Position numbers and translations under genes: made by a program
Notes under the pieces: model-generated
The model's database searches: none
What the model was told of the DNA's origin: nothing
What the model saw: only the letters and a program-made list of their open reading frames with translations
Shown: in pieces, positions 11,948 to 64,000 of the stretch
Layout: each line of letters begins with the position of its first letter
How positions within the stretch are numbered: the stretch's first letter is position 1
From: Lepidostoma basale
Taxonomy: Eukaryota > Arthropoda > Insecta > Trichoptera > Lepidostomatidae
Length of the DNA: 64,000 bases
Assembly: GCA_022606425.2 (NCBI GenBank)
Contig: JAHDVF020000177.1
Location: 1,116,001 to 1,180,000 of the forward strand
Direction of reading: 5' to 3'

Positions 11948-12171
11948 ATTACTGTTAAAATTTAAAACACTTATATTTTATGTATCACAATTTCTTTTTA
12001 TTTACAGAGTGTCGCAATAGCTGTTTCGCCAACCGATATTGGCATCATCAGGTGTTACAATAAACTACATTTATGATGATGCCAACATCGGTTGGCAAAA
12101 CAGCTGTCGCAACACTCAGTAAATAAAAAGAAATTGTGATATATAACAGTGTTTTAAATTTTAACAGTAAT
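11948..12171. repeat. HH-1 foldback with two hammerhead-like cores
   Basis: Long imperfect palindrome: the left arm starts ATTACTGTTAAAATTT and the right arm ends AAATTTTAACAGTAAT. The minus-strand core (12016-12051) has CTGATGA, T, stem II GCCAAT-ATCG-GTTGGC, GAAAC, AGCTATT. The plus-strand core (12073-12108) has the same stem II, but its CUGAUGA and GAA elements are mutated. Confidence 0.7.
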
Positions 12172-12292
12172 AATGTTGAAGTATCATAGTGTTTCGGCCA
12201 AAACAATGGACTATATAATAATACTTCTAGAAAACAGACGATTTCATTCATATTAATTATTTATTATGGAGTTTCATATCATTGCTCAAGAA
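12172..12292. repeat. HH-4 foldback, right arm only
   Basis: Matches the outer part of the HH-4 arm (ACTTCTAGAAAACAGACG ... TTCATATTAATTATT) and continues into GAAACAATAA-type flank shared with 14790-14870. Confidence 0.5.
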
Positions 12293-12330
12293 ACAATAAA
12301 TATATAAACTTATAGATATAAAATAATAAA

Positions 12331-12514
12331 ACACTCTGTAGTTAACCACGGTGTGGTTATTATACTCGTAATTGACATCAACTAGTTTCGCTTGGACCCG
12401 AGTTTAATCAGGGCAGTATAATAACTGAGTTATACTGCCCTGATGAAGCTTGGGTCCAAGCGAAACTATTTGGAATCAATTATAATAAAAATAGCGTGGT
12501 TAAATACAAAGTGT
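12331..12514. repeat. HH-2 foldback with two hammerhead-like cores
   Basis: Inverted arms. The plus core (12440-12470) is CTGATGA, A, stem II GCTTGG-GT-CCAAGC, GAAAC, then TATTT. The minus core (12380-12411) is CTGATTA, A, a weaker stem, GAAAC, TAGTT. The arms share GTAGTTAACCACG / CGTGGTTAAATAC at the ends. Confidence 0.65.
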
Positions 12515-12559
12515 TATAACTAACTATTTAACTTGAATATGAAAGCTTGAAAATTCAAT

Positions 12560-13200
12560 AACATTGTAGCATATATACATCTTACAAAATTTTCTCAGAC
12601 GTGGTGGTCGTAAGAAGAGCGGAATGGGGAATGTTGCTAACTTAAAGCGATCGCTTAACCCAACCAATGACAGGTCATAAGTCTTGTAAGCGCCTCGACC
12701 ACCATATTCTGTTCCCAGAAAACAATTTACATCTTCGGCTCTATTGAGATACAATTAATCTTTATAAAAATAATTTACCCGCAATGGGTAAAATCCAGTA
12801 TTTGTATACATTCAAAATGTTGTATAAAAACTGGTCCAAGTTAAAAGCATAACAATTGGAGAGACATCTCCAGGCGTAGTCTAGCACTGTATGATAATTG
12901 CAAAGCCTTTCACATTGCAGATAAAGATTTTCTGCTTAATGCTTACACCCAATCTTAATGGATGGCGTATTTTGAACTAAAAAAATGTGAAGTGTTCCTC
13001 AACATTGTAGCAAATCTTCCAAAAATTTGTCAGACGTGGTGGTCGTAAGAAGGGCGGAATGGGGAATGTTGTTAACATAAAGCGATAGCTTAACCCAACC
13101 AATGACAGATCATAAGTTCTGTAAGCGCCTCGACCACCATATTCTGTTCCCAGAAAACAATTTACATATTCATCTCTATTGAGATACAATTAATCCTTAT
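12560..13200. repeat. Two direct repeats of about 200 bp
   Basis: Units 12560-12764 and 13001-13200 are about 88% identical, separated by roughly 236 bp of unrelated sequence. Inside each, GTGGTGGTCG and CGACCACCAT form an inverted pair about 100 bp apart. The second unit abuts a LINE fragment. There is no coding evidence and the origin is unknown. Confidence 0.6.
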
Positions 13201-13202
13201 AT

Positions 13203-14020
13203 ATTTAGGTACATCAGAACACAGATAGACTTTAAAACTATAAAAGAAGAAACATACCTAAGCAACAACAACCTCCTGAAAGTACATATTAATGAAATAG
13301 ATCTTACAATAAATGCAATATACAGACAACCAGGAACCCGCAACAAAAAGGAATACCTACATAGAATATTTAGACAGAATGTTAACGGGTGAACAGAGGA
13401 GTGCAAAATGTGAGATCATAATAGGGGACCTTAATATCAACCTGCTTTCCAGTGATAAACTCACAAAGGACTATATTAATACAAGTAAAGGAAATAATCT
13501 TGGATTTATCAGCTCAATAAAAGAAATTGATTATACACGGAAAAATGACAGAGGAAAAAATACCATAATTGACCATGTAATGACAAACCAGGAATTAGCT
13601 GATTCAACGACACTTGAACTATTCGACACACCACTGAGCGATCACAGAGGAATAAATATTGAACTAAAAATCATACCCATACAGAATATAAAACATCAAC
13701 AATATACCACAAAGAAAATTAACTACAACAAACTAAAAGAAAGCCCAGGAGAAACAATACAGAATGAAGAACCAGGATCTTCAAAGCGCTTCAAGACATA
13801 ATAAGGGAGGAACTGAAGAGACACACTACGAGCAGGAACAGAAAAGACACTCCATCGCTTCAAGAGGGTTGGATGACGAAGGATATTTACAACAAAATAG
13901 AGAAATGAAATTACCTTTACAAAAAAATGAGCGACCAGCATAATCACAAGGAAACTCACTTCAACTCAATATAAAAATATCAGAAACAATACATAATTAA
14001 TAGTAAGATCTAAAAATGTA
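13203..14020 (+). pseudogene. LINE endonuclease-domain fragment (CR1/Jockey type)
   Basis: Translation in two frames gives an apurinic endonuclease-like segment: VHINEIDLTINAIYRQPG, then IIIGDLNINLL, IIDHVMTN and LSDHRGINIEL, followed by a basic linker. These correspond to the GD-N, DH and SDH motifs of the endonuclease. There is a frame change near 13385 and no reverse transcriptase follows, so it is a truncated dead copy. Confidence 0.75.
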
Positions 14021-14137
14021 ACCATATAACCCAATAGGGTTTTTAAAAAAATAAATTTAATTAAAAAAAAATATATATTGAAAGTGTTATGTCGAAATGT
14101 GTAGATGCTCCATTTTTTGTAGTCATATTAACAGCCT

Positions 14138-14239
14138 TAGATGTTTATGTCAATCAAATGGTGGATTATTGATCTTAGATGTTCATTTCTTACTAGACGT
14201 ATCTATTATTAATCTAAGATGTTCATGTCAATCAAATGA
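14138..14239. repeat. Short direct repeats upstream of exon 1b
   Basis: TAGATGTT(T/C)ATGTCAATC-type units at 14138-14160 and 14216-14239 with a partial one at 14174-14190. Confidence 0.45.
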
Positions 14240-14275
14240 ATTGTACTGATGTAGTGGAGCAACGTAAAAACAGTA

Positions 14276-14388
14276 TTGTAACTTGACGAAATTTCTGCTG
14301 TTCTCTCCGCCTCCCGCGCCAGCCGGCAGGTGTCCACCCGTCCGCGGGCTATTCGCAAACCTTCCACTGCCTTCAGCCAATACGAATT
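14276..14388 (+). promoter_or_regulatory. Probable promoter/5'UTR start of exon 1b
   Basis: A locally GC- and CpG-rich stretch in an AT-rich setting, ending with CAGCCAATACG just before the duplicated leader. It contains no repeat match. Promoter role is inferred from position. Confidence 0.4.
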
Positions 14389-14594
14389 GGTCCACCGGTG
14401 CGCGATAGCAGCCTCGCCATTCCGCGCGCGACTCGGTAGGCCGCCTAATTCGTCGCTTATGTTGAGCGGTAAATATGAACTGAAAGAGACGTTCCTCGGA
14501 TGAAATAGTGCAAAGTGAGTGAAGGAAAACAAAAATATAAAGTTTTAAAATAAGAACATCAAAATGAAAGTTAACGCGTTATCTAAAGTTTCTG
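14389..14594 (+). CDS. SLC17-like transporter, first exon 1b (5'UTR plus first 10 codons)
   Basis: Second copy of the leader and first coding exon: ATG at 14564, MKVNALSKVS and one base, donor G|GTAAGT at 14594/14595. The phase joins exon 2 (45174-45306) to restore Gly11. The leader keeps the sequence GAGCGGTAAATATGAACTG and following bases seen in exon 1a, with a small insertion near 14447. Because the downstream exons lie to the right, this copy is the closer first exon of the transporter. Whether 1a, 1b or both are used cannot be told from sequence. Confidence 0.7.
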
Positions 14595-14652
14595 GTAAGT
14601 ATTTATTATTTAAAAATTTAATTAAAATTGTGTAAACATATTTTCACTTGTA

Positions 14653-14771
14653 TGCACTTTTCAAAAACATGTTTCGGGACACTAACGCCCTTCCTCAATA
14701 TAAACATTTTAATATTTATACACTAGGGAAGGGCGTCCGAGGCCCGAAACATGTCTGTGAAAAGTGCAATA
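14653..14771. repeat. HH-3 foldback with hammerhead-like cores
   Basis: Arms share GCACTTTTCA. The plus core (14723-14754) has a degenerate CTAGGGA, A, stem II GGGC...GCCC, GAAAC and ATGTC. The minus core (14668-14698) reads TTGAGGA, A, GGG...CCC, GAAAC, ATGTT. The palindrome after GAA is ACATGT. Confidence 0.6.
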
Positions 14772-14799
14772 AACAAAATTAAATAATTTATTGTTTCTT

Positions 14800-15025
14800 G
14801 AACAATGATGTAAAACTCCATATTGAATAATTAATACGAATGAAAACGTTAGTTTAATAGAAGTTTTATTATTTTTTATGGAATGACATGCGCCCTTCTA
14901 AGGCATTATCAAATGTCAAATGATATTTGATTATGCCTTAGAAGGGCGAAACATGCCATTCCCATAAAATACAATAAAACTTCTAGAAAACCAACGTTTT
15001 CATTCGTAATAATTAAAATTAAAAA
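14800..15025. repeat. HH-4 foldback, near-complete copy
   Basis: Inverted arms share TAATACGAATGAAAACGTT, AGAAGTTTTAT and GGAATGACATG. The right arm reads TTTGATTAT, stem GCCTT-AGA-AGGGC, GAAAC, ATG(T/C)C, i.e. the HH layout with a damaged CUGANGA element. Confidence 0.65.
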
Positions 15026-15950
15026 AATTATTTAAACAATAAAAAAATATTGCCCTAATATTGTAAAGTGTAATATAGGCATTCAATAAACTGTTAACAT
15101 ATCCAAATGCCATGTTTAAGGTTTGCATGTAAGCTTTTAAAACAAACTAAATAACAAAATATGTTCATTGTAAATGTGAAATTGTATATATGTTTGTGTG
15201 TAACAAAACAGTATTATTACAAAGTAATTGTTTTTTTTCCCGGTGAAATTCCAGTGAGAGTGAAAACGTTTGATAGTTTAAAAAAAATATATGAAAAAAT
15301 AAATCGCATTTACATGTCGCAACACAAATTAACTCCTACATACATTAAACTATAAAAAATAAGCATCCAGCAATAGTGAATAGTGTTTTTTTCTTCACAT
15401 GCATACTTAAATAACGTGATATTTTTTTATGAACAGGTTAAATTAAAATCTTTATTTAACGATTGCACGGGTAAATACTTTTTATGGTAGGTACTCAATT
15501 TTAAATACTATTTCAGTTCTATGTACATGCAAGAAAAGCAATATCGTTTGTTACGTAGTATGCAAGCATAAAAATATTTAATGTGTCTAGATTTGTGGAT
15601 GATAACGAGAAACAATACTGTTGATTATTAAATCGTGAAAATGTGGGGTTAGGCGTGAACATAAATATCGTTTTAATTTTTTTTTCTATGATAGAATGAG
15701 TTTAAAAAATATATATATTGTAAACTCGTTCTTCGTATTACTTGGGATGATAATTAAAAATTAAGATTACGTATTTGAAATAATCCATTATCAGTGCAAA
15801 ATCATGTTATATTTAAACTTTAAAAGGCATTGAGACTGGAATAATCGAAAAACTAGCCTGACAAGATTAATATATTCAAAAGAGAGATATAATTTTTCAC
15901 GCGCTTACATTCCTGTTGACAAAGATTTTACAAGTTATTTATAAAATAAA
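15026..15950. other. Intron sequence
   Basis: AT-rich; no gene or clear repeat seen. Confidence 0.4.
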
Positions 15951-15954
15951 CTGG

Positions 15955-16072
15955 TTTATTGTAACACCTGATGATGCCAACATCGGTTGGCGAAACAGCT
16001 GTTGCGACACTCTCAGTGAATAATAGGAAATTGTGATATTATAACAGTGTTTTAAAATTTAACAGTAATAAT
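15955..16072 (+). repeat. HH-1 half-element with best-preserved hammerhead-like core
   Basis: Core 15968-16003: CTGATGA, T, perfect stem II GCCAAC-ATCG-GTTGGC, GAA, palindrome ACAGCTGT, then T before G. The flank (AATAGGAAATTGTGATAT ... TTTAACAGTAATAAT) matches the outer arm at 12130-12171. Only one arm is present. Confidence 0.7.
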
Positions 16073-16838: not shown

Positions 16839-16934
16839 TTTTTTTAAATACGTAACACAGGGAGCATAAATGTTTCAGACATTTTTATTTTTTAATTCAA
16901 TGGAAATTATTTGTTTTTAAGGATATGATTGGAC

Positions 16935-17120: not shown

Positions 17121-17261
17121 ACTATTACAGATACTATTACAAGTTTTTTTTAAATTGTATTTACGTATAGATAAGGTTAGTAAGAACCCTTTGCACGAAA
17201 AATAGCCAAATGTGAAATTTTGTTAGTTGGAACACTCTTATTCTCAGGTGACGGATTGTTG

Positions 17262-17485
17262 GTTTAACAATGACATAAAACATATGTATTTAATATTATA
17301 GGAAACGTGCATTTTATAGATGTTTTATTATATTTTATGGGAGTGACATGTTCCTCCTTGCTGGACAATATTAAATATGTTGTCAAATGATATTTAATAA
17401 TGCGCTCTCGAGGTGACACTCCATTATAATATATTTTAACTTCTTGGCACGATTTTATAATCATTAAATACTTGCGTTTTTTCAA
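17262..17485. repeat. HH-4 foldback, strongly decayed
   Basis: Inverted GGAGTGACATG / GTGACACTCC segments with a TTAAATATG / TATTTAATA centre and the family's outer arms. Confidence 0.45.
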
Positions 17486-20640: not shown

Positions 20641-20646
20641 TATTTC

Positions 20647-21030: not shown

Positions 21031-21110
21031 CACATGTCTTATATATTTCTCAACTAAATATTCAGAATAACTAATCATAATGTGCGTGGATGATACGATA
21101 TATGCATGTA

Positions 21111-21592
21111 GAGACGGCGTGATGGTTAGTTAGTTAGTTAATTAGTCTAACTAATCATCACGCCATCTTCCCGAAGGGAATTTTCATTATTGTTATTGAC
21201 TCCCATATGTCAATCAATGTTTGAATTACATTCGGTAATGCCTTGGAAGGGCGAAACGTGTCATGCCATCTAAAATATAATAAAACTCCTAAAAGACGGA
21301 CATTTTTATTCATATTAATTATGTGAACTCATCATTTTGTATCCCTTCAGAATAAAAACTCACCGGTTTTGACTCAATGAATATATCTACCATAAGTTCG
21401 ATCTTAGAAAACTAACTAACTAATTATCTATCACAACGTCTAGTCTCCCCGGAGGGAATTTTCTTTATTGCTATTGACTCCTATTTGTGAATCAATTTTT
21501 ATCCTGAAGATATATGTCCCTTCGGGATAATAAATTTGTTGGTTTTGGCTCAAAGAATATGTCTAAGTATAATACGTTTTTAGAAAAATAAC
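21111..21592. repeat. Tail-to-tail family A ends followed by a tandem unit
   Basis: GACGGCGTGATGGTTAGTTAG (21114 on) meets its inverted copy CTAACTAATCATCACGCC. The following roughly 180-bp unit (GAAGGGAATTTTC ... CGATCTTAGAAAACT) occurs twice: about 21139-21410, interrupted by an HH-4 copy, and 21411-21592. Confidence 0.55.
21213..21331 (+). repeat. HH-4 half-element inserted in a tandem unit
   Basis: Reads TAATGCCTTGGAAGGGCGAA, ACGTGTCATGCCATC, then the outer arm TAAAACTCCTAAAAGAC. It splits the first copy of the 21139-21592 repeat. Confidence 0.55.
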
Positions 21593-23222: not shown

Positions 23223-26200
23223 AATATTTTTTTTTTTTTTTTTTTTTTTCTCTTTATTTTGTATAGGAGTCTCGTGAGTGTTGTGAACACTCATTTTTGA
23301 GATCCCAAAAATTGTTACATTGGATTTATAAAAATAATACAAACATATTATAGTTTAAGGGAAAGAGCACATTATAAAGGTATATAAACAGTAAAGAGAG
23401 ACAAACACATTATCACCTAAGGGAAAAACACATCATAAATGTAAATAAAAGCAGTATGAGAGAATAACAAACATCTTTAGTAACATAGTAGACACATAGT
23501 ATAAAAGAAAAGAAAAAACTAACACATTGGAACTTAAGGGAAAAAAGAAAAACACATCATAAAGGTAAATAAACAATAATAATATACAATAGGAAAATGA
23601 GGACACTGAAGTAAAATAATTACATAAATTATTGTTAGTGAAACGAAACTTAGGAGGGATTATTGGAATATAGTTGAGAGTAATATTTTTTTATTTTCAT
23701 ATTGGGAGCTAGTTTTAAATGTTCTGGTAAGTTATTTAAAGCATTGAAGGCTATATATTGTAAGGATTTGATTCCGTATTTAGTGGTGTTAACTTTAGGG
23801 ATATTTATATTTTTTGCTTGTCTTGTGTTGTGGTTATGAATATCATTATTAAGTTTAAAGGTTGTATTATAATGGTAGGATTTATCAACGATTTGTTTGA
23901 TTGTACAGGTTATTTCATATAAAGGAAGTATATTTATTGGTAAAATATTTGTCCTTTTATATATATCTTTAGTATGGGTATCAAGTGGTAGTTTAAGTAA
24001 ATTTCTGATTGCTCTATTTTGTAAAACTTGTAATTGATTAATGTATTCTTTTGTAGCAAATCCCCAGATACACGAGAGATACGATATGTGAGAGTGAACA
24101 AATGCATAATAGATCGCCAATAATGTATTTATATTTAATATTCCTTGGAATCTATACAGAATTCCAATTACGGGTGAAATCTTTGAAATTATCTTTTCTA
24201 TGTGTAGATTCCAGGATAATTTGTCATCGATTATAAGACCAAGGTATTTCGTAAAGTTTTGCTTGTGAAGAATATGTCCATTCATTTTAATTTCAATATT
24301 ACAATTTGACTTATTATTAAAAATTAAGAAATGAGTTTTTTTTTCGTTTACTGTTAGTTTGTTTAGTCTAAGCCACTCTGTAAGTTTAGTCAGGTCATTC
24401 TGCATTTCCGTTTTCAGTTGTTGTAAACTTTTGTTGTGATAGAAGATAACCGTGTCATCGGCATAAAGCTGTATGGTACCATGTAACTTAAGATCGGTTA
24501 TGTCATTTATATATATCAAAAAGAGTAGTGGACCTAGAACGGATCCTTGTGGAACACCACATGTAATTGTTTGAGTTGTGCTTTGGTATTGGTCTATGTC
24601 GACTAATTGTTGTCTATTGGTTAAGTAGCTTCTAAAAAGATTTAGGTATTTGTCGGTTATTCCAATGTGTTCAAGTTTTACGAGTAGTATTTTATGGTCA
24701 ACTGTGTCAAAAGCTTTTTGCAAGTCAATAAAAATTGCAGATGTGAATTCCTTATTGTCTATTTGTCGTTGTAGTGAAGCTATTATATCGAAGGTTGCAC
24801 TTTTTGTCGTGGATTTTTTCGTGAATCCGTATTGGGTTGTGGAAAGAAAGTTTATTTTGTCTAAGTATTTTGTTAGTCTAATTTTCATAACATTTTCGAA
24901 TATTTTTGAGATGACAGGGAGAACAGAAATGGGTCGGTAGTTTTGTATATTTTTTTTTGAGTCTGCTTTGTGAATTGGAGTAACTTTAGCTATTTTTAAT
25001 TGGTCTGGAAAAATTCCAGAGAGTAAAGTATTATTAATTAATATGACGAGGTCATTAGTTACTTCATCACTGCATGTCTTTAGTATCCGAGCTGATAGTT
25101 TATCAACACCAGGTGCGGCTTTTGTCTTTATTTTTGATATTATGTGTTTTATTTCTTTTTTATTAGTGCGGGACATGTAGAGTGATTGCTGATTATTTTT
25201 AGAGTTAGATATAGAATTTGTATCTGTTATTTTCGACGGAATTTTAGAGGCAAGATTATGTCCAACTGAGGTAAAGTATGTATTGAAGGTATGTGCAATT
25301 TGTGTTTTATCATTAATTTCAATATCGTTAGATATTATAGATTCAATTTTTTCACGTTTATTATTTACATTATTTTTAAGAACAGAGTTAATGTTAATCC
25401 AAGTTTTTCTAGAGTCATGTAGGCTTTCTTCAAAAATATTTGATAGATATTTTTTTTTGAGGCTTCTTCTGTAGTTAGTGACGGTGTTACGAGATTTATT
25501 TTTTAGTTGGAGATTTGTAGCGTTGGGGTTGTTTTTCCATTTTTGTACCCAGAATTGTCTAATTTTGATTAATTCATTGAGTTTAGTATCGAACCACGGT
25601 GTATTACCAAATTTATTTTTATCTTTTCTTCTTGGTATGAATTCGTGCGTATTATTATCTATGATATTTTTTATGTAGTTCTGGAAATCATTATAGTTTT
25701 TGTTAATGTCACTTCCGTGAGTAAATTTATTACAACTTAGATCAGCTTTAATTCCAGTTATGTCTGTTCTTTTACTCAGTGCTGGTAAAAGGATTCTGTT
25801 ATTTTTAAGTTTTTGAATATTTTTTAAAACGTCGAGGATAAGTAAGTTGTGATCGCTTAATTCCTCGTCGATATTTGATATTCGACCAGCTATATCTACA
25901 TTATTAGTAATAATATGGTCTATTAAGGATCGACTGTTAGGTGAGTCACGGGTTGTATATTTTTTGTTACAGATATTGAAATGGTATGAACTGAGCGTAG
26001 ATTCGTATTTTTTTAGGGAGTCGCTTTGTTTTGAAATGTCTATATTCATATCTCCTATAATTAACGTTTCACTGCGGCACCTTTTAAGAATTTTTTCAAG
26101 AGAGTTAAGAAAGGTGTTAACATCATTATTTGGTGTTCTATATATTACAAACAATTTAAATGGATTCATACCATTACACTCGATCTTAATACCTAGAAAG

Positions 26201-26459
26201 CAGTCTTTATCACTGATGCACGTGCTGTTTATTATTGTAAAATTTAAAGAGTTCTTAATGTAAACACCCACTCCACCACCTTTTTTTGATTTTCTAGATG
26301 TGAAACAACATTTGTAGCCTGGTATGTTATAATATTCTTCATCACCTTCATTGAGCCAAGTCTCTGTAATTGCGAGAATGTGGATTGAGAATTTGAATTT
26401 TTTAGTAATGTTTTCCAGTTCATCAAGTTTATTTTTTATGCTTCTAGCTATTATAGACG
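23223..26459 (-). mobile_element. CR1/Jockey-type LINE with intact endonuclease-RT frame, 5' truncated
   Basis: The 3' end on the minus strand is a poly(A) of about 22 nt (T run at 23228-23249), followed inward by a 3'UTR of about 400 bp and the open frame. The flanks share TGATTAT (23216-23222 and 26460-26466), a plausible target duplication. The 5' end is cut just before the endonuclease domain, so ORF1 is missing. The open frame suggests a relatively young insertion. A decayed relative is at 31668-32105. Confidence 0.85.
23650..26459 (-). CDS. LINE endonuclease-reverse transcriptase (ORF2-like), about 936 codons open
   Basis: The frame stays open from the element's 5' boundary to TAA 23650-23652; an in-frame TGA lies just outside at 26467-26469, and no clear initiating ATG is kept. 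Endonuclease motifs, in order: ARSIKNKLDEL, TETW, GDMNID, IDHI and SDHNLL. Reverse transcriptase motifs: TPIHK, NYRPIS, FIDLQKAFDTVDH, GVPQGSVLGPLLFLIYIND, the catalytic YADD box and LGLIIDDKLSW. The C-terminal region has WGFATK and NHNTRQ. All catalytic signatures look intact. Function as known for the family: target-primed reverse transcription of its own RNA. The truncation should prevent independent mobility. Confidence 0.9.
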
Positions 26460-26572
26460 TGATTATTCATACGCTTATATTCTGAGTTAAAATACTAAGT
26501 GTTTTTTTCCTTTATTCGACGGAAAAATTACAATCTATATGGCTAATATAGTAAATAAACCGAAGTTTAAAT

Positions 26573-26934: not shown

Positions 26935-27120
26935 AATCTCAAATTAATGGGTTTTTTATGTTAAGTTCTAATGTTTGTGTCTTCAACTGGTTTCGGCAGC
27001 TCGCTGCTAACTTCTGGTCTAAGAAGATGGCAGAAGAAAATGACAGCGAGCTGCTGAAACCGGTCGAAGACTCAAATATTTGTTGATATTGACTAAATAT
27101 ATTTAAAAAAAACTTTTTAT
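26935..27120. repeat. HH-5 foldback
   Basis: The arms carry GTCTTCAACTGGTTTCGGC and its inverted form ending GAAACCGGTCGAAGAC. The minus core (26985-27013) has stem II GCAGC-GA-GCTGC, GAA, ACCAGT, T; the plus core (27041-27065) has GAA, palindrome ACCGGT, C. The CUGANGA element is degraded in both. Confidence 0.55.
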
Positions 27121-27560: not shown

Positions 27561-27639
27561 GCTGTTTTGATCGCCACATCCCCAACTTTGGTCCTTTCTT
27601 TGACACACTCATTTCGTTTCCTATCTCTTTTAAACATTT

Positions 27640-28068
27640 TTTTTTCATTAATGCGAATGAAAACATCTGTTTTCTTGACATTCTAATTTTATTTTACGGG
27701 AATGACATGTTTCGCCCTGCAAACCCATTATCAAATAAGGTATTATCAAAAAATCTTTAACAATCTCTCCACGACCTTCGTGGCCGAGTGGTGAGTGCAT
27801 TGACTGCCACCCCGAAGGTTCCGGGTTCGATTCCCGGCGAGGGCAGTGTGATTATCACACTGTCTTTTGTCTGGTTTAGATATCACGTGATAATAAACTG
27901 GCGATAGATTAGCTTCCTATCACATGTCACGAGAATCACCAATGATAGCTATAATACCCTTTACATCGATTTGGCTCATGCTGTCATGATGTAAAGAGCG
28001 ACTCAACAAAATAATAATAATAATAATAATAAAAACAGATGTTTTCATTCGTATGAAATATTGAAAAT
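27640..28068. repeat. HH-4 foldback interrupted by a SINE
   Basis: Left part has GGGAATGACATGTTTCGCCC and CATTATCAAATAAGG; after the SINE, AAAACAGATGTTTTCATTCG is the outer right arm. Confidence 0.55.
27771..28030 (+). mobile_element. tRNA-derived SINE, full-length
   Basis: Head ACGACCTTCGTGGCCGAGTG with box B GGTTCGATTCC, hairpin CAGTGTGA-TTA-TCACACTG, body, and (AAT)n tail at 28009-28030. Confidence 0.85.
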
Positions 28069-33560: not shown

Positions 33561-34021
33561 GTATTATCATCTATATTACTATTCCACGCCAGCGGACTCG
33601 CAGTGCCGAAATCACGATCGTAGAAACTTACTTTATTGGCTCTGATGTGAATTTCATGGACAACAAAATCAAGAGTTTTGTTTCTTTAATATAATGAATG
33701 TTTTCTGCAAATGTGATATAATATTGTTTATTTGATTATTAAATTTCATATAAAATATTCAAAAAATAGTTTTTCAATTACATTAGTAATATGTATTCAA
33801 GTTTATAATTCACAGCGAGTTTGCTTGGATTGAAACTTTGTTTAAAAGATATAGACACACATTTTTGCATCCATACACATGGCATTTAATCCAATAAATA
33901 AACGAATTGTTATTGAACTTTAATTGTATTTGTTTAATATATATTGGGTTTATTTATGTACTCGAATTTAGCAATAGCGAAGCGTTGCCGGGTCAGCTAG
34001 TTAAAAAATAAAATTAAAAAA

Positions 34022-34205
34022 CAAACAGAAGCCCTTCATCAGTGTTTTAATTTTTTTTAAACAGTTTTGACAGATATTTAAAACAATCTGTTAAAATCTC
34101 CCCCCCCCCCTTTTAAATATTATTTTCTCCCTTCTTTTTTTGTATTAAGAAATTCTTTGAAGAACACTGGTGAAGGGCTTCTGTGTGCGAAACATGTTTG
34201 TTTTT
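34022..34205. repeat. HH-3-like foldback, decayed
   Basis: Arms AACAGAAGCCCTTCATCAGT and ACTGGTGAAGGGCTTCTG are inverted. The minus strand keeps CTGATGA,A,GGGC; the plus strand keeps GCGAAACATGTTTG. Neither core is complete. Confidence 0.5.
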
Positions 34206-35394
34206 AAATATTTTTTTAGTAAAGTTCGTGTTGTGTACAAAAATAAAAAATAATTATAATTAATTGATACACCCCACATCCCCTATTTTCTATGCTCCTT
34301 CCAACCTGTGTCCCGCCCCTCCCACATTTACGATTAAGTAGTAGACATACATCCTAGCTGCTAAGTTCCCCTGAATGTGTACAAATTTTATTTATTTGAA
34401 TAAACTGTGTGAACGCGAGTAGGTATGGGACATAGAAGAAAAAATAAATAAAGTAGATTAAATGTGGCCTGGCATCCCGATGTGCTTGAAATCTTACATG
34501 TAAGTCCCGGAAGGACGCGGGGACAGGCCTAGGAAGTGTGCGAGCGAAGTTAACGAAAGGGCGCCGCTGCACCCTATAACAGCCTCGGGTATGTGGAGGG
34601 ACCTTCTATATCTATGTAAAAGAAATAGTTCCGCAACACAGAGTTATGGATATATAGAAGTATTGTACAAATTTACTTTAAAAGATGTGAGGGACGACAA
34701 AAAATATTCTCATTGGACATGACCGCATAGCGATTTCGCTATGTCACAGTTTTATGCGATAAAAATATTCATTTTTAACTCCCGGACAAGCAGGCTGAGT
34801 AAATATTGTTTGTTTATTCAATTTTTTAGATTTCAAGAAAGCATACAATGCGATAATGTACATGCGTTTGTAAACAAACACTTCTTTTTTTAAGGAGGCG
34901 TGCTTGAAAAATAGATTGTGTTGGATTAATTGTAATCATTTCATAAATACTGCAATAAACTCATAGCAGTGAAACAAATCTCTCACTTAATAACCATTTA
35001 GAATGAAAAATAACAAATTTAAACGTCTTAGTACCTACGAGTATATGTAAAGTGCTGCAATTTTCTTTTACCATAAACATCCTTATGAAATATCAATTTT
35101 CATCACATTATAGATCACAATGTTATGGTGAAAAATTATAAATAAATATTATTATTCAGTTGAAAATATATTATATTTGAAATAAGAGAAAACAAAGATT
35201 TGAATGAGTTTACAGGTAGTTATAATGCACCTACATATATACATACATATTATAAAGTAATATATTATACTTATAATATATTATAATAAACTACGTATAT
35301 AATAATATTATGTTGTTCATTGAAATTTCATAGTAAATAATGCAAATAGAAATATTAATATAACATATTTTATACATATTTAGTTTTATTGCGC
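34206..35394. other. Intron sequence
   Basis: AT-rich; a modest GC patch at 34440-34620 holds no supported gene. Confidence 0.4.
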
Positions 35395-36918: not shown

Positions 36919-37069
36919 GCTTTCGTATGATTTTAATATATTTGATACGCAGCACTTAAAATATTTTAATACACATACATAAATAACATACACATACAAT
37001 GATGACCGACAAATAATATTAATCCATTATTAGTTTAAATTTGAAAAACTGTTATCATAATTAATTTAT

Positions 37070-37135
37070 GAGTTTACCGGAAGAGCTGTTTCACCAACCT
37101 TGTTTAGCTTCATCAGGTGTTACAAGCAATTTAAC
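37070..37135 (-). repeat. HH-1 half-element
   Basis: Minus core 37083-37116: CTGATGA, A, a weakened stem II, GTGAAACAGCTCTT. Confidence 0.5.
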
Positions 37136-44604: not shown

Positions 44605-44705
44605 AAACCGGTTTATATCGTTCTCCTGATGATGAAGGTGTAAAGCCTTTGAAATATATAGAAAAAACGAAACTCACTAGTGAAAAAACGGTGTCTTAAT
44701 TCATA
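44605..44705 (+). repeat. HH-6 half-element with hammerhead-like core
   Basis: Core 44626-44661: CTGATGA, T, stem II GAAGG-TGTAAAG-CCTTT, GAA, palindrome ATATAT, A, G. Confidence 0.55.
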
Positions 44706-48094: not shown

Positions 48095-48960
48095 ACGAAA
48101 GTCACAATGGAGTTGTAGTACCAACAATAATGAATGGAAGTGAAGCACGGAACTGGCAGAAGAAGGATGAAAGCAGAATAAATACGGCATATACGAGATC
48201 TCTTAGACGTATGTGTAGTAAAATGATGTACGATAGAATTTCAAATGCTAATATAATGGTGATTTACCTATATTAATGTAGAACTGAAGAAAGTATTACA
48301 AATAAAATTATGAAAGAATCACTGCATTGGTTTGGAAATATGGAACGCATGGATGAAAGAAAAATGGTTAATAAAGTATACGTGAACGATGTGAATCGTG
48401 GGAGACCGAGGAAAACTTCGCATGATCAAATTAATAAAATGTTCGTATAAAGCATTCACTTTGTTGTAAGACATTTAAATATTTTTTATTATTTGTCTTT
48501 AAAACCAATAAAAAATAAAATAATAACACTGCACTTTGTTTCTCACCACTATGCGGTTATTTTAATTGCCGACTAGTTTCGCTTGTACCCAAGCTTCCTC
48601 AGGGCTTCGTCATAACAGGAATAACTGTTATTCGTAATAACTGTTATTACGAAGCCCTGAGGAAGCTTGGGTACAAGCGAAACTAGTCGGCAATTAAAAT
48701 AACCGCATAGTGGTGAAAAACAAAGTGCAGTGTTTTTATTTTATTTTATTTCAAAAACAAATAATATTTTTTTTTTATAATAATTAATAAAATTTTAAAG
48801 GTTGGCCATGTTAGAAGTTGGAAGAATCAACGTGCGTTTATGACTTGCTGTATGAATTTGGAGGACGTTAGAGAGGTGTCAAGATCGAGTAGTGTGGCGT
48901 TCATTATCTCTGCCTACCCGTCCGGAGAAACGGCGTGATGGTTTGTTGTTGTTGTTGTTA
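48095..48960 (+). pseudogene. Family A LINE 3' end, split by an HH-2 insertion
   Basis: Left part 48095-48443 (NGVVVPTIMNGSEARNWQKK ... GRPRKTSHDQINKM) and right part 48782-48960 (VGHVRSWKNQRAFMTCCMN ... ISAYPSGETA, tail (GTT)n). The two rejoin exactly across the 15-bp duplication. Confidence 0.8.
48444..48781. mobile_element. HH-2 foldback element with target duplication
   Basis: 338-bp insertion flanked by AATTAATAAAATGTT (48429-48443) and AATTAATAAAATTTT (48782-48796). It contains a nearly perfect 206-bp palindrome (48527-48732). Plus core 48657-48688: CTGAGGA, A, stem II GCTTG-GGTA-CAAGC, GAA, palindrome ACTAGT, C. The minus core at 48571-48603 is identical. Stem I can form from GCC/GGC plus the more distant GTTAT/ATAAC. 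No coding capacity. Confidence 0.8.
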
Positions 48961-50464: not shown

Positions 50465-50779
50465 TATACGAGTATATGAATGTTTTTACAAGAGACAAAC
50501 ACTTTATATTTTTATTTGTACAACTACGAATTTAACGTACCTAGTAAAAATATTCATAAGTATTGAATGTAATTACGCGTGCGTATGTACTACCTATATA
50601 AAATCAACTTATCCCATTAATTTTGGATCACTTTGTGTAAACATACATACCAGGATTTCCATTAAATGTTTGTCAAGCCAGAAAAACATGTTTTTGTGCA
50701 TTAAATAGCAATTCAAAACTTATGATTTTATTTTTAGCTAGATACCAGAAATCGTGTATTTATATTAATTGATTGTATT

Positions 50780-51349: not shown

Positions 51350-51515
51350 GTTTTATACAATAATTAATATGAATGAAAACGTCTGTTTTCTAGGAGTTTT
51401 ATTATATTTTAGATGGAATGACATGTTTGGCCCTTCTAAAGCATTATCAAATGTCATTCTATCTATAATATAATAAAACTCCTAGAAGACAGGCGTTTTC
51501 ATTAATATTAATTAT
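51350..51515. repeat. HH-4 foldback
   Basis: AATGAAAACGTCTGTTTTCT at the left and AGACAGGCGTTTTCATTAAT at the right are inverted; centre GGAATGACATGTTTGGCCC with CATTATCAAATGTCATTC. Confidence 0.6.
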
Positions 51516-51544
51516 TTAATATGGATATTATTGGATATTATTGT

Positions 51545-51640
51545 TCAAGAAACAATCAATTAGGTTTGAAACCTTCATCATCGGGATACATACTTAATCG
51601 TTCTCCCAATGATGAAGATATAATTAAATAAACTTGATTA
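51545..51640. repeat. HH-6 foldback, decayed
   Basis: AAACCTTCATCATCGGGATA and TTCTCCCAATGATGAAGATA are inverted. The minus strand keeps CGATGA,T,GAAGGTTT...AAACCT. Confidence 0.45.
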
Positions 51641-51679
51641 ACTGTTCAAACAAAAAAACTTTGTTATAAACATTGATTA

Positions 51680-51745
51680 TATTTTGTCGCGGCAGCTGTT
51701 TCGCTAACCAATGTTAGCATCGTCAGGTCTTACAATCAACTAAAA
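51680..51745 (-). repeat. HH-1 half-element with compensatory stem II change
   Basis: Minus core 51691-51726: CTGACGA, T, stem II GCTAAC-ATTG-GTTAGC, GAAAC, AGCTGCC. Relative to 15968-16003 both sides of the third stem II pair have changed (C-G to U-A), keeping the pairing. Confidence 0.65.
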
Positions 51746-51894
51746 AATACACCAGAAAGGCAGTTTATGGTATATACAATATTATTAGGAAGCGAAGACA
51801 CTACACACAATATAATCAAATAGTTTTACTGAAATCTCTTGATGGAAGTTCATTTGAAATAATAATTAAATTAAATGATGTTTTAACTACTTCC

Positions 51895-51965
51895 ACTTTT
51901 GTCTCTATTTCGACAGCGACCGGTTTCGCCAGGCTCGCTGGCATCGACAGACTGGTCTGTAATTA
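51895..51965 (-). repeat. HH-5 half-element
   Basis: Minus core 51918-51950: CTGTCGA, T, stem II GCCAG-CGAGC-CTGGC, GAA, palindrome ACCGGT, C, then GCTGTCG that can pair with upstream CAGT as stem I. Confidence 0.6.
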
Positions 51966-52655
51966 ATAATAATAATAAATCGTTATTATGGAATTCTATA
52001 GTGATAATGCCAAGTTGATATTAAAAAAAATCGCCATTAAATTAAAATAAAATAAAGATGTTTTTTATTGTAGAAATACATAAAAATTTCTCTTGTGTTG
52101 ACTCACTCTATTAACTGACACGAATGTTAATTGTCGATCCAATGAAAGTCCTTCAGATGACTGTGTGTCACAGATTCGCACTTCTGAATTGTATTGAGAC
52201 CTTCTGAATTTTGTGAAAATCTCTCTGAGGTCAAATATTGACATTGCGAGATATTGCACATTGATGAAATCTGTAAATATTGCAATTTTCTTAGACATCA
52301 GTGCATTCGATTATACGAGTACGACTTCGATAACTTTCGACTATTTATGACAAATCTGTATAACTTAGCGTTGTATGAAATATTTAAAATTCGTAGCTAT
52401 TATCAACTTCTTATAAATAATAGTACTAGAATTTTCTTTATTATTTACCTAGATTATTATTTAATAAAAATAAATCAATCTAGAGTTAATAAATTCAAAT
52501 GCAATGATTGCTTATCCTTTTATACTCGTATATAGGAATAAAATTACGCGTTACATTTTATAGAATAAAAAAGCAGATAAGATGATTATAATTTTTTTTC
52601 AGTAATCGATAACCACCTCTTTGTAAAAACGTAAAACAAAAATAACGAAAATCAA
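51966..52655. other. Intron sequence
   Basis: Nothing recognised. Confidence 0.4.
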
Positions 52656-57235: not shown

Positions 57236-57237
57236 CG

Positions 57238-57992
57238 GATTGACATTGACATTCTGGCGGAATCTGTGGGGGAGCTAGAAGGCATGTTAGATGAACTGAA
57301 CACTGCATCCAGACGAGTGGGTCTCGGGATGAACTTGGACAAGACGAAAGTCAAGTAATGAACATATTATCCCGAGATCAGTAACCGTCGATGGGTCGGC
57401 TCTCGAAGTGGTACAAGAATACACATATCTTGGCCAAATCATGCAATTAGGACGAAACAATTTCGAGAAAGAAGCCGACGGAAGAATTCAGTTGGGTTGG
57501 CCGGCCTTGGGGAAATTACGTCATGTTCTCAATTCCAAAATACCACAATGCCTCAAGACTAAAGTCTTCAACCAGCGCGTTTTGCCAGTCATTACGTGCG
57601 GAGCCGAGACGTGGACAGTCTACAGATTCAAGGTCGCCCAGCGCGTCATGGAAAGAGCCATGCTTGGAATAACCTTGAGGGACAGATTTAGAAACGAATT
57701 TATTCGACAACAAACCAAGGTGACTGAGGAGGCTCTACGGATAGGAGGGCTGAAGTGGCGGTGGGCTGGTCATATCGGAGAACCGACAGCCGACGAAGAA
57801 GACGGGTTCTGGAGTGGAGACCACGTACAGGATTCCGTAGAGTTGGACGCCCCCCTGCCCGCTGGACCGACGACCTGAAGAGGATTGCTGGAGATAGATG
57901 GATGGGAGCGGCAATGGATAGGGGGCGGTGGCGTGCTTTGGGAGAGGCCTAAATTCAGCAGTGGATGACAGACGTCTGATGATGATGATGAT
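57238..57992 (+). pseudogene. RTE-like LINE 3' end, family C (longest copy)
   Basis: DIDILAESVGELEGMLDELN, RVGLGMNLDKTKV, frameshift, EYTYLGQIMQLGRNNFEKEA, RVLPVITCGAETWT, AMLGITLRDRFRNEFIRQQT, LKWRWAGHI, frameshift, GRPPARWTDDLKRIAGDRWM, ending WMTDV and a (GAT)n tail at 57977-57993. Three frame changes over 750 bp. Confidence 0.85.
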
Positions 57993-58970: not shown

Positions 58971-58974
58971 TATG

Positions 58975-59760: not shown

Positions 59761-59986
59761 AGATTAGTTTTAGATCATTGTTCTAGAAACGAAAAACAAG
59801 CAATTATTATTGAATATACCTACTATAATATACGGGATTGATTTTTTAGAGTAAAAATCAAGTTATTCCTCTTTGTTTGTTAGTAACATATTTTATAGTA
59901 TATGCGTATTCTCATACTTATACCCCGGAATTTCCAGTCTATAATTACATATAACTTCAAATGTTTAAACTTTTTTTTTGTTCCAG

Positions 59987-60083
59987 CCAACAGTCCGAAT
60001 GTCTAAAAGAAGTCCCAAGCAGAAATATGACCTCAGAGAGCCTGAGAGAATCATCGCTTGACTTACATCCCATACCCGAACAG
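59987..60083 (+). CDS. SLC17-like transporter, exon 3 (loop after TM1)
   Basis: Acceptor TTTTTGTTCCAG|C and donor GAACAG|GTAATG. Its first base completes AGC (Ser) with exon 2, followed by 32 codons: QQSECLKEVPSRNMTSESLR, ESSLDLHPIPEQ. It ends in phase 0. The segment is hydrophilic with one N-glycosylation sequon (NMT), as expected for the long loop between helices 1 and 2 in SLC17 transporters. Sequence after this point in the window shows no convincing exon 4, so the gene continues to the right. Confidence 0.6.
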
Positions 60084-60339
60084 GTAATGAATTATTATTT
60101 AAAGAATACAATTAGCAATTTAATGATATGTGTGCATATTTTTCTAGACAATATCAAAACACCGTGCTTCGCAAGCAGGAAATGTAAGTCGTAAAGCAAT
60201 TCGAATTTAAAATAGGTAATAAAAATATTGTCCACTGCATATGCATCAATTAAATTCATTTGTGGAAAACCACTGGTTTGTGAAAACATATTCACACAGG
60301 ATATGTGTACCTATAAACTATTTTTTCACAACACCATTA

Positions 60340-61052
60340 ATGAACCATACATCTACTAAGTGTTATTATGTATAGAAAACAATTCTACATAATTCATTTG
60401 GTCGCCTTTAAATGTCGCAGTCTTTCAAATCAAATCAGTTTATTTTCTCAAAAGATATTACAAACAACAATTATAGTTTACGGCATCTATTGAGAACATG
60501 TAAAACATAAAAAAAACGCATTAGGAGTACAAGATACTCTCCAAAGTCAAGAGTATTTGTCTTCTGAACGTACTTTCACGAATATGAAAGACGTCGATCT
60601 CCGAAACGATCATGCTCAGCAGTTTGATTGCTCTCCACACCGGCATCACCAGAGATAAAACAGTATGTGCTGACGCTGTCGAAGATAACCATTATGGATA
60701 GCCTTAAAGATAACGGAGTTCTCAAAGAATCCCCTGATAAGTCTGAAGAAATGGGTAAGTGTGCACCCATCTCTTCTTATCTGCAAACTATTGGTCCCCA
60801 GCATGCCCAAAAGGAATGCAGTGGGATGAAGCCACGGATAGCTACCAATGCGGATAGCTTCCTCTAGTTTAATGAACCATATATCTTCTAAGTGTTATTA
60901 TGTATAGAAAACAATTTTACCTCATTCATTTGGTCGCCTTTAAATGTCGCAGTCATTCTCTAGCTTAATGAATTATACGTCTACTTAGTGTTATTATGTA
61001 TAGAAAACAATTCTACCTCATTCATTTGGTCGCCTTTATATGTTGTAGTCTT
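60340..61052. repeat. Three copies of a roughly 95-bp unit, the first separated by an insertion
   Basis: Units at 60340-60426, 60869-60957 and 60958-61052 share AAGTGTTATTATGTATAGAA, CATTTGGTCGCCTTTA and TAGTTTAATGA-type starts. The last two are adjacent; 442 bp separate the first two. Confidence 0.75.
60427..60868 (-). mobile_element. LINE 3' end inserted in the 95-bp repeat array
   Basis: Begins AAATCAAATCAGTTTATTTT, the inverted 3' terminus seen at 39150-39240. Minus translation contains FRRQILLTLESILYS-like residues. An open frame through 60628-60840 is part of this insertion. Confidence 0.55.
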
Positions 61053-61555
61053 TCTTCTGATACTATCTTAAAATAGCGTTCAATTTTATATTAAGTATTC
61101 AGATCATCGTTCCTGAATTTACAAATATTTCATGTCTTACTCTTATATATTGATTTAACAACATCTTTTTCTGTATACAACAACTTCATAGTTTTTATAT
61201 ACAATAAACAATTTCAAAGTCGATTAATCAAATCACGTAGTTTTACCAAAGCTTATTAATATATTATTAATAGATCGTACAAATTAACCAAATACATATA
61301 AATAGTACCCCTAAATCATATAAAACACACACTTAACAGGGATAAATTTTATTATTGACATTACCCAAAATTTCGGAAACATTTGTGAATGCGCATTATT
61401 TTAAATCTGATTCAGATGATGTTCTTTAAAACCTGTACAAAAAGTCAATCATAATGAGTTATCATTTCGGAAACTAACTAAAATGGTCTTCAGAAAAAAC
61501 ATGTATTTTTTTATATATTCAAACGCCGGATTCTCCGAAAACCTTTTTTTTTTAT
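61053..61555. other. Intron sequence
   Basis: Nothing recognised. Confidence 0.4.
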
Positions 61556-61559
61556 TAGT

Positions 61560-61925
61560 GCGCTGTAGAGACGCGGGCCGACACTGTGCGAACCAAGGGA
61601 CTACTAAGAACATCGGAGATGAGAGGTCCTAAGATCAATTACTGGAAAAACTCTCCGAGATCGTGTCCGCAACGTAGACATAAGAAAAACTTGCGAAATA
61701 GTGAATATCGTCCAGTGGAATAGATCCAGAAGAAGATACTGGAGGGACCATGTAGCCCGAATGGATAGTGACAGACTTGCATGTACAGTCGCTTATGAAA
61801 TCCCCTCCGGAAAACGCCCACCTGGAAGACCGCCTAAGAGATGGAAGGACGGCTGGACCTCATCATCCGACGAGACATGATTTCTGTGTCATCGTCAGAT
61901 ATATTAAAAGAAGAAGAAAAAGACT
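61560..61925 (+). pseudogene. RTE-like LINE 3' end, family B
   Basis: AVETRADTVRTKGLLRTSEM at the start, IIRRDMISVSS near the end, (GAA)n tail; several frame changes. Confidence 0.7.
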
Positions 61926-62404
61926 AACTCTTAAACATGAATCATGTGTTGACCATCACTGAACACAAACATACGTACATTATTATATTTTCAGAATCAT
62001 GTGTGTAGTACAAAAAATGCATTATCTTGTGTCGTACGATGTGCCCTAAGCCAATTTAAAATAATGCCATTATTACGGAAAATATCATAATGAGTGTTTA
62101 TGTGAAACAATTAAGTAAGAACGCTGTTTCTATCTCATTAAGATCGTAGAATGATAAACATGACAATCTTCTCTTATTATAGACGTATGTAGGTACCAAC
62201 AACGGATTTAAGTACTTACCTAAATATTTGTATTTTTCTTTATTCATTCTCGTATTTTGTATGTACATCATGTTGGGAATTTAAATTTTCTGATATTATA
62301 CAGCGGTTATTAAAAATCTCTAGCAAAAGGCTTATGTTAATATTAGGTATATTTCTGTAAAGTTTATCTTGATGGTTTTCGAGAAAGAATAATGTATGAC
62401 GATT
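61926..62404. other. Intron sequence
   Basis: Nothing recognised. Confidence 0.4.
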
Positions 62405-63310
62405 TGTGATATAAGTGCGATGGGCGAGAAATTGGAGCAAGTTACCGAATTTACGTATCTGGGAAGCATGTTTATAAGAGACGGAAAAATGGAGAAAGAC
62501 ATCGAAAGAAGGGTTGGTGCTGGGAATAAAATAAATGGCGTACTCGCAATAATAATAATAATAATAATAGGCTAATTTGTATAGCGCCGTTTTCGTGAAT
62601 AGCTCACCTCAAGGGCGCTTTGACAGTGTTTTTAGTCATGAGAGCTGCATGTGACACCAGCAATCAGATAGCCGTTGTTTACATTTTATGCGATATGTTG
62701 AAAAGGTGGGTTTTTATGTGAGATTTAAAATCTGTCCGATTGTCAATGCATCTGACGCAAATAGAAATATATCCACAGAAGCAAAGATGGCAGTACACAA
62801 TGGAGTTCTACTCGTAGTGCCAACCCTCGTGTATGGTAGTGAAGCTTGGAGCTGGCAAATGAAGGATGAAAGCAGGATAAACGCCGTAGAAATGAGATCA
62901 CTAAGAATAATGTGCGGGAAAACGTTGTATGACAGAATACTGAACGATGAAATTAGAAAGATATGTAAGGCAGATGGACTGCATCATGGATAAAATAATA
63001 AAAAAGGATCCCTGAGATGGTTTGGACATATGGAACGAATGGATTAGAGTAGAATGGTTAAAAAGTTGTACACAAGCAGCGTGAGTGGAAAAAGAAGCCG
63101 AGGACGACCGAGAAAAACATGGCATGACCAAATTAATCAATTACTAAAAGGCGGCCTCATTCGAAGTCGGAATAATCGACGTGCGTGCATGGTACGATGT
63201 ATGAATGTAGAGGAAGTCCGAGAGGTATGCCAGGACAGAGCATTGTGGCGATCCATCCTCTCTGCCTACCCTTCCGGGGGAATGGCGTGATGGTTTGTTG
63301 TTGTTATTGT
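62405..63310 (+). pseudogene. Family A LINE 3' end, split by a CR1-like insertion
   Basis: Left part 62405-62545 (EKLEQVTEFTYLGSMFIRDG, ERRVGAGNKINGVLA), right part 62755-63310 (NRNISTEAKMAVHNGVL, MRSLRIMCGKTLYDRI, GRPRKTWHDQINQLLKGG, RACMVRCMNVEEVREVC, SILSAYPSGGMA). The junction is confirmed by 36352-36400, which has the same order without the insert. Confidence 0.85.
62546..62755 (-). mobile_element. CR1-like LINE 3' end nested in family A
   Basis: Minus orientation with (ATT)n tail at 62546-62570, 3'UTR AAAGCGCCCTTGAGGTGAGC complement, and a short coding end (FKSHIKTHLFN-like). Matches 30705-31025. Confidence 0.75.
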
Positions 63311-63971
63311 CAATTTTTGGCGCTAGCGAACGTTTCACTTAAATATCGCATCCCTTGAGCCTATAGAACCTGCTTGGTAGGTGAAATAAGTAGGCATGTT
63401 AACCATGGATAAAAAGTCGGGATTAACCGGTCCTGATTAACCTGATACGTATTTTCCCAAGAGCCCACGTGATAGAATCTGCTAAAGTTTGAAGGTGAGC
63501 TTGATGTTTGATAGATATTCAAAAATAATATCAGGAACTATGTGTACTTGTGTATATGTCTATGTGTAACAATAACAAGACTTGAGGCGCTGACCTACAA
63601 GTACAATGACTCGAATAGTTATGTTCGTATTTTTATACGAGTACAAACGTTTTTTTATCGATAGGTACTTTTTTAATTCGATGTATTGTTGGGGTATAAA
63701 AAAAGACATTGGATTTCTAATTAAAACATTTCTCTGCGCTACAAATGTAGATCATAGTTAATTGGAAGTATAGATTTGTTCTAAATATTTAAACTTATAA
63801 CGAAAATAGTTCTGTTTTTCAATGTACGTAAAAACCCCATAGAAAAAATAATGTCAGTTATTATTTTAGTTTGTATATTTGTTGCTATTTAAAATATATT
63901 CTCTTACATAACCAATAATGAAAATATTGGAAAGTCCTCTATAATACTTATTTAGTTTTATTCCATTTGAT
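63311..63971. other. Intron sequence
   Basis: Nothing recognised. Confidence 0.4.
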
Positions 63972-64000
63972 TTTTAGCATCGACCGGTTTCGGCAGGTTG
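63972..64000 (-). repeat. HH-5 foldback, cut by the window end
   Basis: Minus strand: CTGCCGAAACCGGTCGATGC, i.e. GAA, palindrome ACCGGT, C. Confidence 0.5.

Follow-up and report, generated by a model that had tools for sequence, protein, structure and literature searches.

A 64,000-nucleotide stretch of the Lepidostoma basale genome (GCA_022606425.2, contig JAHDVF020000177.1, positions 1,116,001 to 1,180,000, forward strand; hereafter the window) contains at least seven families of short repeats with a hammerhead-like ribozyme core, many of them arranged as head-to-head foldbacks. These motifs are dimer-type Penelope hammerheads in dispersed, mostly promoterless copies, and the repeats are very probably copies of the terminal regions (pseudo-long terminal repeats, pLTRs) of several Penelope-like families, arising by the route that we propose below for the family designated A. 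The layout common to the families consists of the core, a self-paired stem II, GAA, and a palindrome of 6-8 nt in the place where stem III would be. This reading draws on direct observation of the hammerhead architecture in multiple families, of its position downstream of Penelope genes, of the common 5' end and two 3' ends of family A, and of mirror pairing.

A strict scan of both window strands (an exact CUGANGA, zero to two nucleotides, a perfect stem II with 4 or more bp and GAA) returned nine matches, eight of which have exactly one extra nucleotide ahead of stem II. With GAAA and a Watson-Crick closing pair also demanded, the window retains seven matches, against a mean of 0.03 in 60 simulated Markov-1 windows, none of which attained the observed seven. 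The original prediction, made from the letters of the window, had assigned a shared CUGANGA layout to at least six foldback families. This layout holds for families A, B and D; it fails in C, E and F and in one of the two G arms. At 15968(+), at 48657(+) with its mirror 48602(-), and at 44626(+) the prediction is borne out, and CUGANGA, in exact form, is followed by a single additional U or A, a paired stem II, GAA, a palindrome and a non-G base. The site placed at 51918 actually lies on the minus strand, where its core at 51950 reads CUGUCGA (U at A6), and 14723 reads CUAGGGA, with UUGAGGA in its mirror arm at 14698(-). The core is intact in families B and D, in the good copies of family A and of its variant A' described below, and in families H, J and K outside the window; it is altered in C, E and F, which we label hammerhead-like only on account of their core nucleotides, and intact in one of the two arms of G.

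The palindromes differ among families (ACAGCUGU in A, ACUAGU in B, ACCGGU in C, AUAUAU in D, ACAUGU in E). Those of the A...U form are followed by U, C or A, in keeping with the prediction and with positions A15.1-U16.1 and H17 of the hammerhead; at 12440, 12051, 51726 and 37116 the palindrome is broken. Family membership was assigned from BLAST of each site against the window together with an inverted-repeat search, which confirmed the foldbacks as genuine inverted repeats with arms of 25-114 nt; families C and D are listed here as solo copies. Wherever both arms of a foldback have a readable motif, the two motifs point outwards, with the 5' ends central (A at 12051/12074, B1, B2, E, F at 14828-15015, and G).

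The extra nucleotide, which had been raised as a caveat, is present throughout and proves to be a constant of these motifs here, not an objection to them. In a wider set of 272,374 nt (the window plus 57 genome loci, given L numbers below), exact cores with a perfect stem II carried one extra nucleotide in 60 instances, were scored with two in 2 and with none in 0, and the reversed-sequence control gave a single match. The two double insertions were called at L039 and in family D, the latter really a single insertion with a G-U closing pair. When stem II was not demanded, the core, GAA and a 6-nt palindrome were found at 20 sites (reversed control, 1); one extra nucleotide ahead of stem II was the best reading at all 20, and 16 have at least 4 stem II pairs, which upholds the predicted pairing of stem II in differing families. 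A genome search for motifs with no insertion yielded 187 matches (control, 0), a count that is not clean: among the first 40 matches listed, 22 prove to be motifs with one insertion, the inserted nucleotide being G, 7 are best taken as lacking it and 11 are weak. One extra nucleotide is the rule for these motifs, and motifs without it may exist but look rare. The inserted nucleotide is U in A, C, D and the commonest form of F, so that A9-U-G10.1 spells AUG where stem II begins. The hammerhead of chrysanthemum chlorotic mottle viroid, studied by De la Pena and Flores in 2001, reportedly also has one extra core nucleotide after A9, as here, in a viroid context; a pattern scan of viral contigs did not find our motif.

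Stem I, on which the original prediction was silent and which was unused in finding the motifs, was assessed with one representative per family, hand-picked and so not blind: it pairs at 34 of the 44 first-four positions across 11 families, compared with a permuted mean of 18.8 and none of 20,000 permutations as high, and pairing is weak in families A, F and J. When eight motifs drawn from four non-window families were aligned, 82.8% of cells were paired (56.2% when shuffled) and the covariation score was 0.629 (0.193 when shuffled). Because the eight motifs came from a scan requiring stem II, the stem I half, with 65.6% paired, is the independent part of this statistic. A covariance model built from these eight motifs recovers window families G (E-values 3.1e-5 and 0.0057), B (6.2e-5 twice and 0.0014) and E (9.8e-5 and 7.6e-4); it matches D (0.087) and C (0.41) weakly and does not detect A or F. 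Weak matches at 21496 (0.11) and 26205 (0.42) fit no family. New hammerhead families kept turning up in loci fetched for other purposes, and two of them, K and H, lie close together at L009, at 2881(-) and 3109(-)/3170(+).

In the 768,829,600-base assembly of the same insect, the family A core has 3,618 exact matches and its reversed control 0. A TET-like exon close to one of the loci has its nearest named relatives, at about 45% identity, in Lepidoptera, and a further relative at 81%, which points to an insect that probably belongs in or close to Lepidoptera. The variant A', in which a C-G pair of stem II is swapped for T-A (GCTAAC/GTTAGC), has 837 exact matches, and the mismatched half-way form with C-A (GCCAAC/GTTAGC) has 213, both with controls of 0; the gap was allowed to be 4-12 in the parent count and 3-6 in the other two. 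If each side decayed independently at 213/3,618, approximately 12 double-changed copies would be expected, provided that the other half-way form is equally common. The 837 swapped copies far exceed this dozen, and the swap therefore represents an amplified, paired subfamily. Chance resemblance in AT-rich DNA might explain some single weak matches, such as the lone core match at 57724(+) and the model matches at 21496 and 26205. As a general reading it is refuted by the genome counts, to which the simulated-window, reversed-sequence and shuffled or permuted controls may be added, and we assign it next to no probability.

The tie between hammerhead-like cores lacking stem III and Penelope-like elements, originally predicted from resemblance, is supported by synteny in this genome. 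A genome search for GIY-YIG gave at least 62 matches (150 of 542 first-look candidates were scored), and we examined 30 loci, among which L034/L057 and L050/L054 are overlapping pairs. At 23 of the 30, the covariance model places a same-strand hammerhead downstream of the GIY-YIG domain, at a distance of 300-1,100 nt (counted by eye; two of the positive loci, L042 and L044, belonged to the training set of the model). An opposite-strand hammerhead occurs in that interval at one locus, L052, and a looser motif scan adds L054. Family C hammerheads at these loci reach model E-values of only 0.015-0.034 and were found by the motif scan too.

The clearest view of such an element comes from L059, where a 758-amino-acid frame with RVT_1 and GIY-YIG has named relatives that include insect reverse transcriptases and proteins of Phthorimaea, Euphydryas, Diabrotica and Schistocerca. 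The two arms of the element form a 456-nt inverted repeat; the 3' arm carries the family C motif of the window in sense, about 0.4 kb past the stop and with similar flanks, and the 5' arm carries it in antisense. The solo family C copy of the window (51880..51966, minus strand) closely resembles the 3' end of this element. L059 and L060 are probably alleles or duplicates because they have a flank in common, and they were not counted as independent. At least three Penelope families (C, H and J) each own a hammerhead. Among the window families the linkage was seen for C alone; a Penelope gene with a hammerhead was found for none of A, B, D, E, F and G, which, judged by likeness, would derive from Penelopes similar to those of C, H and J. 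Spaced family A cores at L009, considered as bracketing a Penelope gene, turned out to be a wrong lead.

The ends of family A copies are informative as to how they arose. In an ungapped comparison of the regions upstream of 44 copies, 29 match at 12 or more of 15 positions as far as -15 (AGTTTATTG) and lose similarity beyond, and 6 extend further upstream, where they contain CTATAAATAG or a near variant of it and have the TATA box 32 nt from the boundary; longer copies number 537 genome-wide at up to 3 mismatches (control, 0). The 3' ends of 46 copies, aligned to one tailed copy that is itself included, fall mainly into two classes about 45 nt apart, at 110-119 (22 copies) and 155-174 (12 copies), in line with the optional 30-40 bp tail of Penelope elements. 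Among approximately 200 listed family A or A' places, 17 neighbouring pairs lie less than 500 bp apart, 15 of them head-to-head, one tail-to-tail and one direct (counted by eye among the matches listed; one place occurs on two contigs). These pairs and the window foldbacks display the inverted, mostly head-to-head order of pLTRs. Flanking direct repeats of at least 8 nt accompany 4 of 11 pairs (8-11 nt, one A-rich), compared with 1.25% of 400 random window placements, many of the loci in the pair and direct-repeat statistics having been selected for being pairs. Two A' cores in direct order, 253 bp apart on one contig (G000 C98:364632 and 364885, both plus strand), constitute a rare possible cis-dimer arrangement.

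We propose that a TATA box would direct transcription of family A to start some 15 nt ahead of a minimal type I hammerhead. Approximately 100-145 nt beyond that, the Penelope enzyme would begin reverse transcription, at either of two sites, and would proceed to the RNA 5' end, giving a run-off complementary DNA (cDNA). Both cut DNA strands could then prime, and the product would be inserted solo or as a head-to-head mirror pair. The 5' end of family A would thereby correspond to the transcription start, both strands would presumably be extended rather than self-primed, and the source RNAs would cleave as dimers through the palindrome. What the original prediction took for non-autonomous mobile units is better explained by Penelope copies that are run-off products or truncated at the 5' end and mostly promoterless, and the foldback by the joint left by insertion, not by a designed unit. 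The window repeats are probably dead copies, because most of them are without a promoter.

Several of these features have counterparts in known systems. The palindromes would suit dimers, as in the small Penelope hammerheads that Lunse and colleagues are said to have described in 2017. Minimal type I hammerheads without helix III occur in Penelope pLTRs and as dispersed motifs in animal genomes (PMC7761336, PMC6155905, PMC7229834); they are thought to be dimeric and are credited, in the available text of two of these sources, to Cervera and de la Pena 2014 and to Lunse, Weinberg and Breaker 2017 (via PMC7761336, PMC6155905). The window motifs are of the same helix III-less type I in the same dispersed and pLTR setting; the kind is already known, and they are further examples of it. 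Described here besides are the mirror pairs, the TATA box that precedes the 5' end of family A, its two classes of 3' end, and the core changes in C, E and F. In the Poseidon element of Anolis carolinensis (PAc), according to the available text of its description, a hammerhead sits at the junction of pLTR and open reading frame (ORF), shortly ahead of the reverse transcription start sites, the enzyme cuts and extends both strands, and two adjacent internal start sites define the tail (PMC11167929). Family A resembles PAc in having the hammerhead before the start sites and in the two start sites that would explain the tail. The main ORF of PAc begins at stem II, whereas here the matching AUG opens a frame that stops after only 20 codons in A and 11 in recent C copies. 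In the available text on the rotifer Adineta vaga, Penelopes have inverted pLTRs, most often head-to-head, of which one bears a tail, and named cases show target repeats of 8-10 bp, and the word hammerhead occurs 0 times in that main text (PMC3846280). The copies described here share the inverted head-to-head pLTRs and the one-sided tail; foldbacks made of short arms alone do not appear in that text. Among the papers listed on hammerheads with Penelope, Lepidoptera, foldback or head-to-head, no title or abstract opening describes mirror-paired hammerhead arms; we claim no priority.

Two other modes of spread were considered. Independent non-autonomous retroelements, similar to retrozymes and spreading through small circular RNAs, would suit the rather uniform short length and the thousands of copies, and non-autonomous retrozymes with type I hammerheads are indeed reported in animals in the available text of PMC7229834. 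We reject this improbable reading on the orientation of pairs, the position of the 5' end and the Penelope setting: the repeats are solos or mirror pairs rather than tandem, with only one of the 17 close pairs in the same direction; their 5' end is off the cleavage site, where a cleaved circle should put it; and such motifs reside in Penelope elements. Even less probable, to a very marked degree, are foldback or miniature inverted-repeat DNA transposons whose strong inverted repeats resemble a ribozyme by accident. A DNA transposon is contradicted by the frequency of solo half-units, by 3' ends that often differ between the arms, by direct repeats of no constant length, and by the reverse transcriptase genes that lie between family C arms; a linked transposase was not systematically searched for.

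A number of results weigh against the Penelope-copy reading or against parts of it. No hammerhead lies 300-1,100 nt downstream of GIY-YIG at 7 of the 30 loci (L029, L030, L031, L037, L038, L043 and L047), and 20 fetched long family A copies show no Penelope protein match within 1.5 kb. Nine of the 44 family A copies are outside both 5' classes, two of them (the minus arms of L016/L017, one place twice) with the TATA box out of register, and 11 of the 46 3' ends belong to neither class. Exactly one arm is tailed in 8 of 14 mirror pairs, both in 1 and none in 5; these pairs include L010 and L011, whose cores are 1.3-1.5 kb apart. For head-to-head repeats, the rotifer paper, in its available text, prefers self-priming over extension of both strands (PMC3846280). 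Rfam hammerhead models gave no match at E-values up to 1 in the window or up to 10 in 15930-16040, a miss that we infer is owed to the absent stem III loop and the extra nucleotide; Rfam returned six sub-threshold microRNA matches in the window, of which five fall on hammerhead foldbacks and the sixth at 21108; in 15930-16040 it gave three weak matches to unrelated families. As regards cleavage, minimum-energy co-folding does not pick the hammerhead dimer, and stem II forms in 6 of 8 monomer folds, with at most one instance of two strands pairing through the palindrome (judged by eye). Lastly, A6 is replaced by U in all the family C copies found, which may cripple catalysis.

Predicted folding energies range from -56 to -184 kcal/mol for whole foldbacks versus -8 to -22 for single arms. 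On these predictions foldback transcripts should fold as long hairpins hiding the ribozyme, and because of this hairpin an RNA spanning both arms (48600-48720) would be misleading for cleavage. The commonest family F form, UUGAUAA (6 of 13 copies, for example window 27713(-), L022, L025, L065 and L078), changes C3 to U and G8 to A together. C3 and G8 are paired in the known hammerhead structure, and the double change would, judging from the sequence, preserve this core pair. A C3G/G8C double mutant partly restored cleavage, according to the available text of PMC11167929.

These core states bear on whether the motif is kept, at least in some families, as a hammerhead-shaped scaffold for protein binding or for priming reverse transcription, with self-cleavage unimportant, which we consider possible though short of probable. 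Such a role would fit family C, which resides in the best-preserved Penelopes here with its altered A6, as well as the altered E and F. It would also fit Anolis, where, in the available text, the hammerhead cleaved only with its protein, mutants still inserted, and no reads started or ended at the cut site (PMC11167929). It sits poorly with A, B, D, H, J and K, which retain the full catalytic core despite differing stems, and with the joint change of both C3-G8 members in family F, which looks like core conservation.

Coordinates of the window repeats are compiled in Table 1. A motif search of the window for Penelope reverse transcriptase or GIY-YIG yielded nothing convincing, a GIY-YIG-like regular-expression match at 50651 crossing stops, and Pfam found domains in two of ten window ORFs, all of non-LTR type. 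An open 938-amino-acid frame at 23650-26466 (-), with endonuclease and RVT_1 domains, belongs to a non-LTR retrotransposon whose closest protein is 48% identical. A tRNA-like match at 27774-27845 (+) (Rfam RF00005, 33.7 bits, above the gathering score), which was not called by ARAGORN, is possibly a tRNA-derived short interspersed nuclear element. Outside the window, a long frame at L011 2019-3104 (+) is similar, as judged by eye, to a mariner-type transposase.

Table 1. Hammerhead-like repeats of the window, by family, with core positions and features.
Repeat	Coordinates	Strand	Features
Family A solo	15954..16072	+	core 15968-15974, extra U 15975; stem II 15976-15991 GCCAAC/GUUGGC, GAA, palindrome ACAGCUGU 15995-16002, H17 = U 16003; 3' end short and tailless
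Family A foldback, left arm	11947..12066	-	core 12051, reads leftwards; short 3' end
Family A foldback, right arm	12074..12232	+	5' end within core; tailed 3' end, alignment end approximate
Family A' copy	51631..51741	-	core 51726; stem II GCTAAC/GTTAGC, compensatory to A
Family A copy, degraded	37026..37130	-	core 37116
Family B foldback B1, left arm	48512..48625	-	core 48602
Family B foldback B1, right arm	48634..48747	+	core 48657; stem II GCUUG/CAAGC, palindrome ACUAGU, H17 = C 48688, stem I GCC/GGC
Family B foldback B2	12358..12493		right-arm core 12440+; left arm degraded
Family C solo	51880..51966	-	core 51950 CUGUCGA; stem II GCCAG/CUGGC, palindrome ACCGGU, H17 = C
Degraded foldback	26970..27080		GAAACCGGTC-like arms, possibly family C-like
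Family D solo	44610..44685	+	core 44626; stem II GAAGG/CCUUU, closed by a G-U pair; palindrome AUAUAU, H17 = A; internal loop in stem I
Family E foldback	14653..14768		cores 14698- UUGAGGA and 14723+ CUAGGGA; palindrome ACAUGU
Family F foldback	14828..15015		site 14948; right-arm core UUGAUUA, left arm UUGAUAA
Family F foldback	51354..51521		core UUGAUAA
Family F solo	27637..27745	-	core UUGAUAA (27713)
Family F solo	21224..21321	+	core further altered
Family F solo	11297..11384	-	core further altered (11369)
F-like fragments	12213-12259, 17303-17352
Family G foldback	34016..34206		right-arm core 34167+ CUGGUGA; left-arm core CUGAUGA, 3' part deleted

We tentatively raise the idea, which we consider less likely than not, of an insect class of Penelope hammerheads with three coupled features: an obligatory nucleotide after A9, a fixed place, and a core rewired in some families. 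If such a class exists, the nucleotide after A9 would often be the U that makes an AUG, and the motif would lie exactly between the transcription start and the reverse transcription starts. The rewired cores (C3-G8 to U3-A8 in family F, A6 to U in family C) would then indicate that the fold outlives or replaces catalysis, and the orphan minimal hammerheads of animal genomes would be run-off cDNAs of pLTR transcripts, inserted solo or as two-strand mirror pairs. The copies in this one genome suggest a simple origin, in which each would run from near a promoter start, across the ribozyme, to the start sites of the enzyme, and they suggest how hammerhead motifs become scattered through genomes. 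With intact, swapped and damaged cores present in a single genome, one could ask directly whether cleavage is required by Penelope elements or only the fold.

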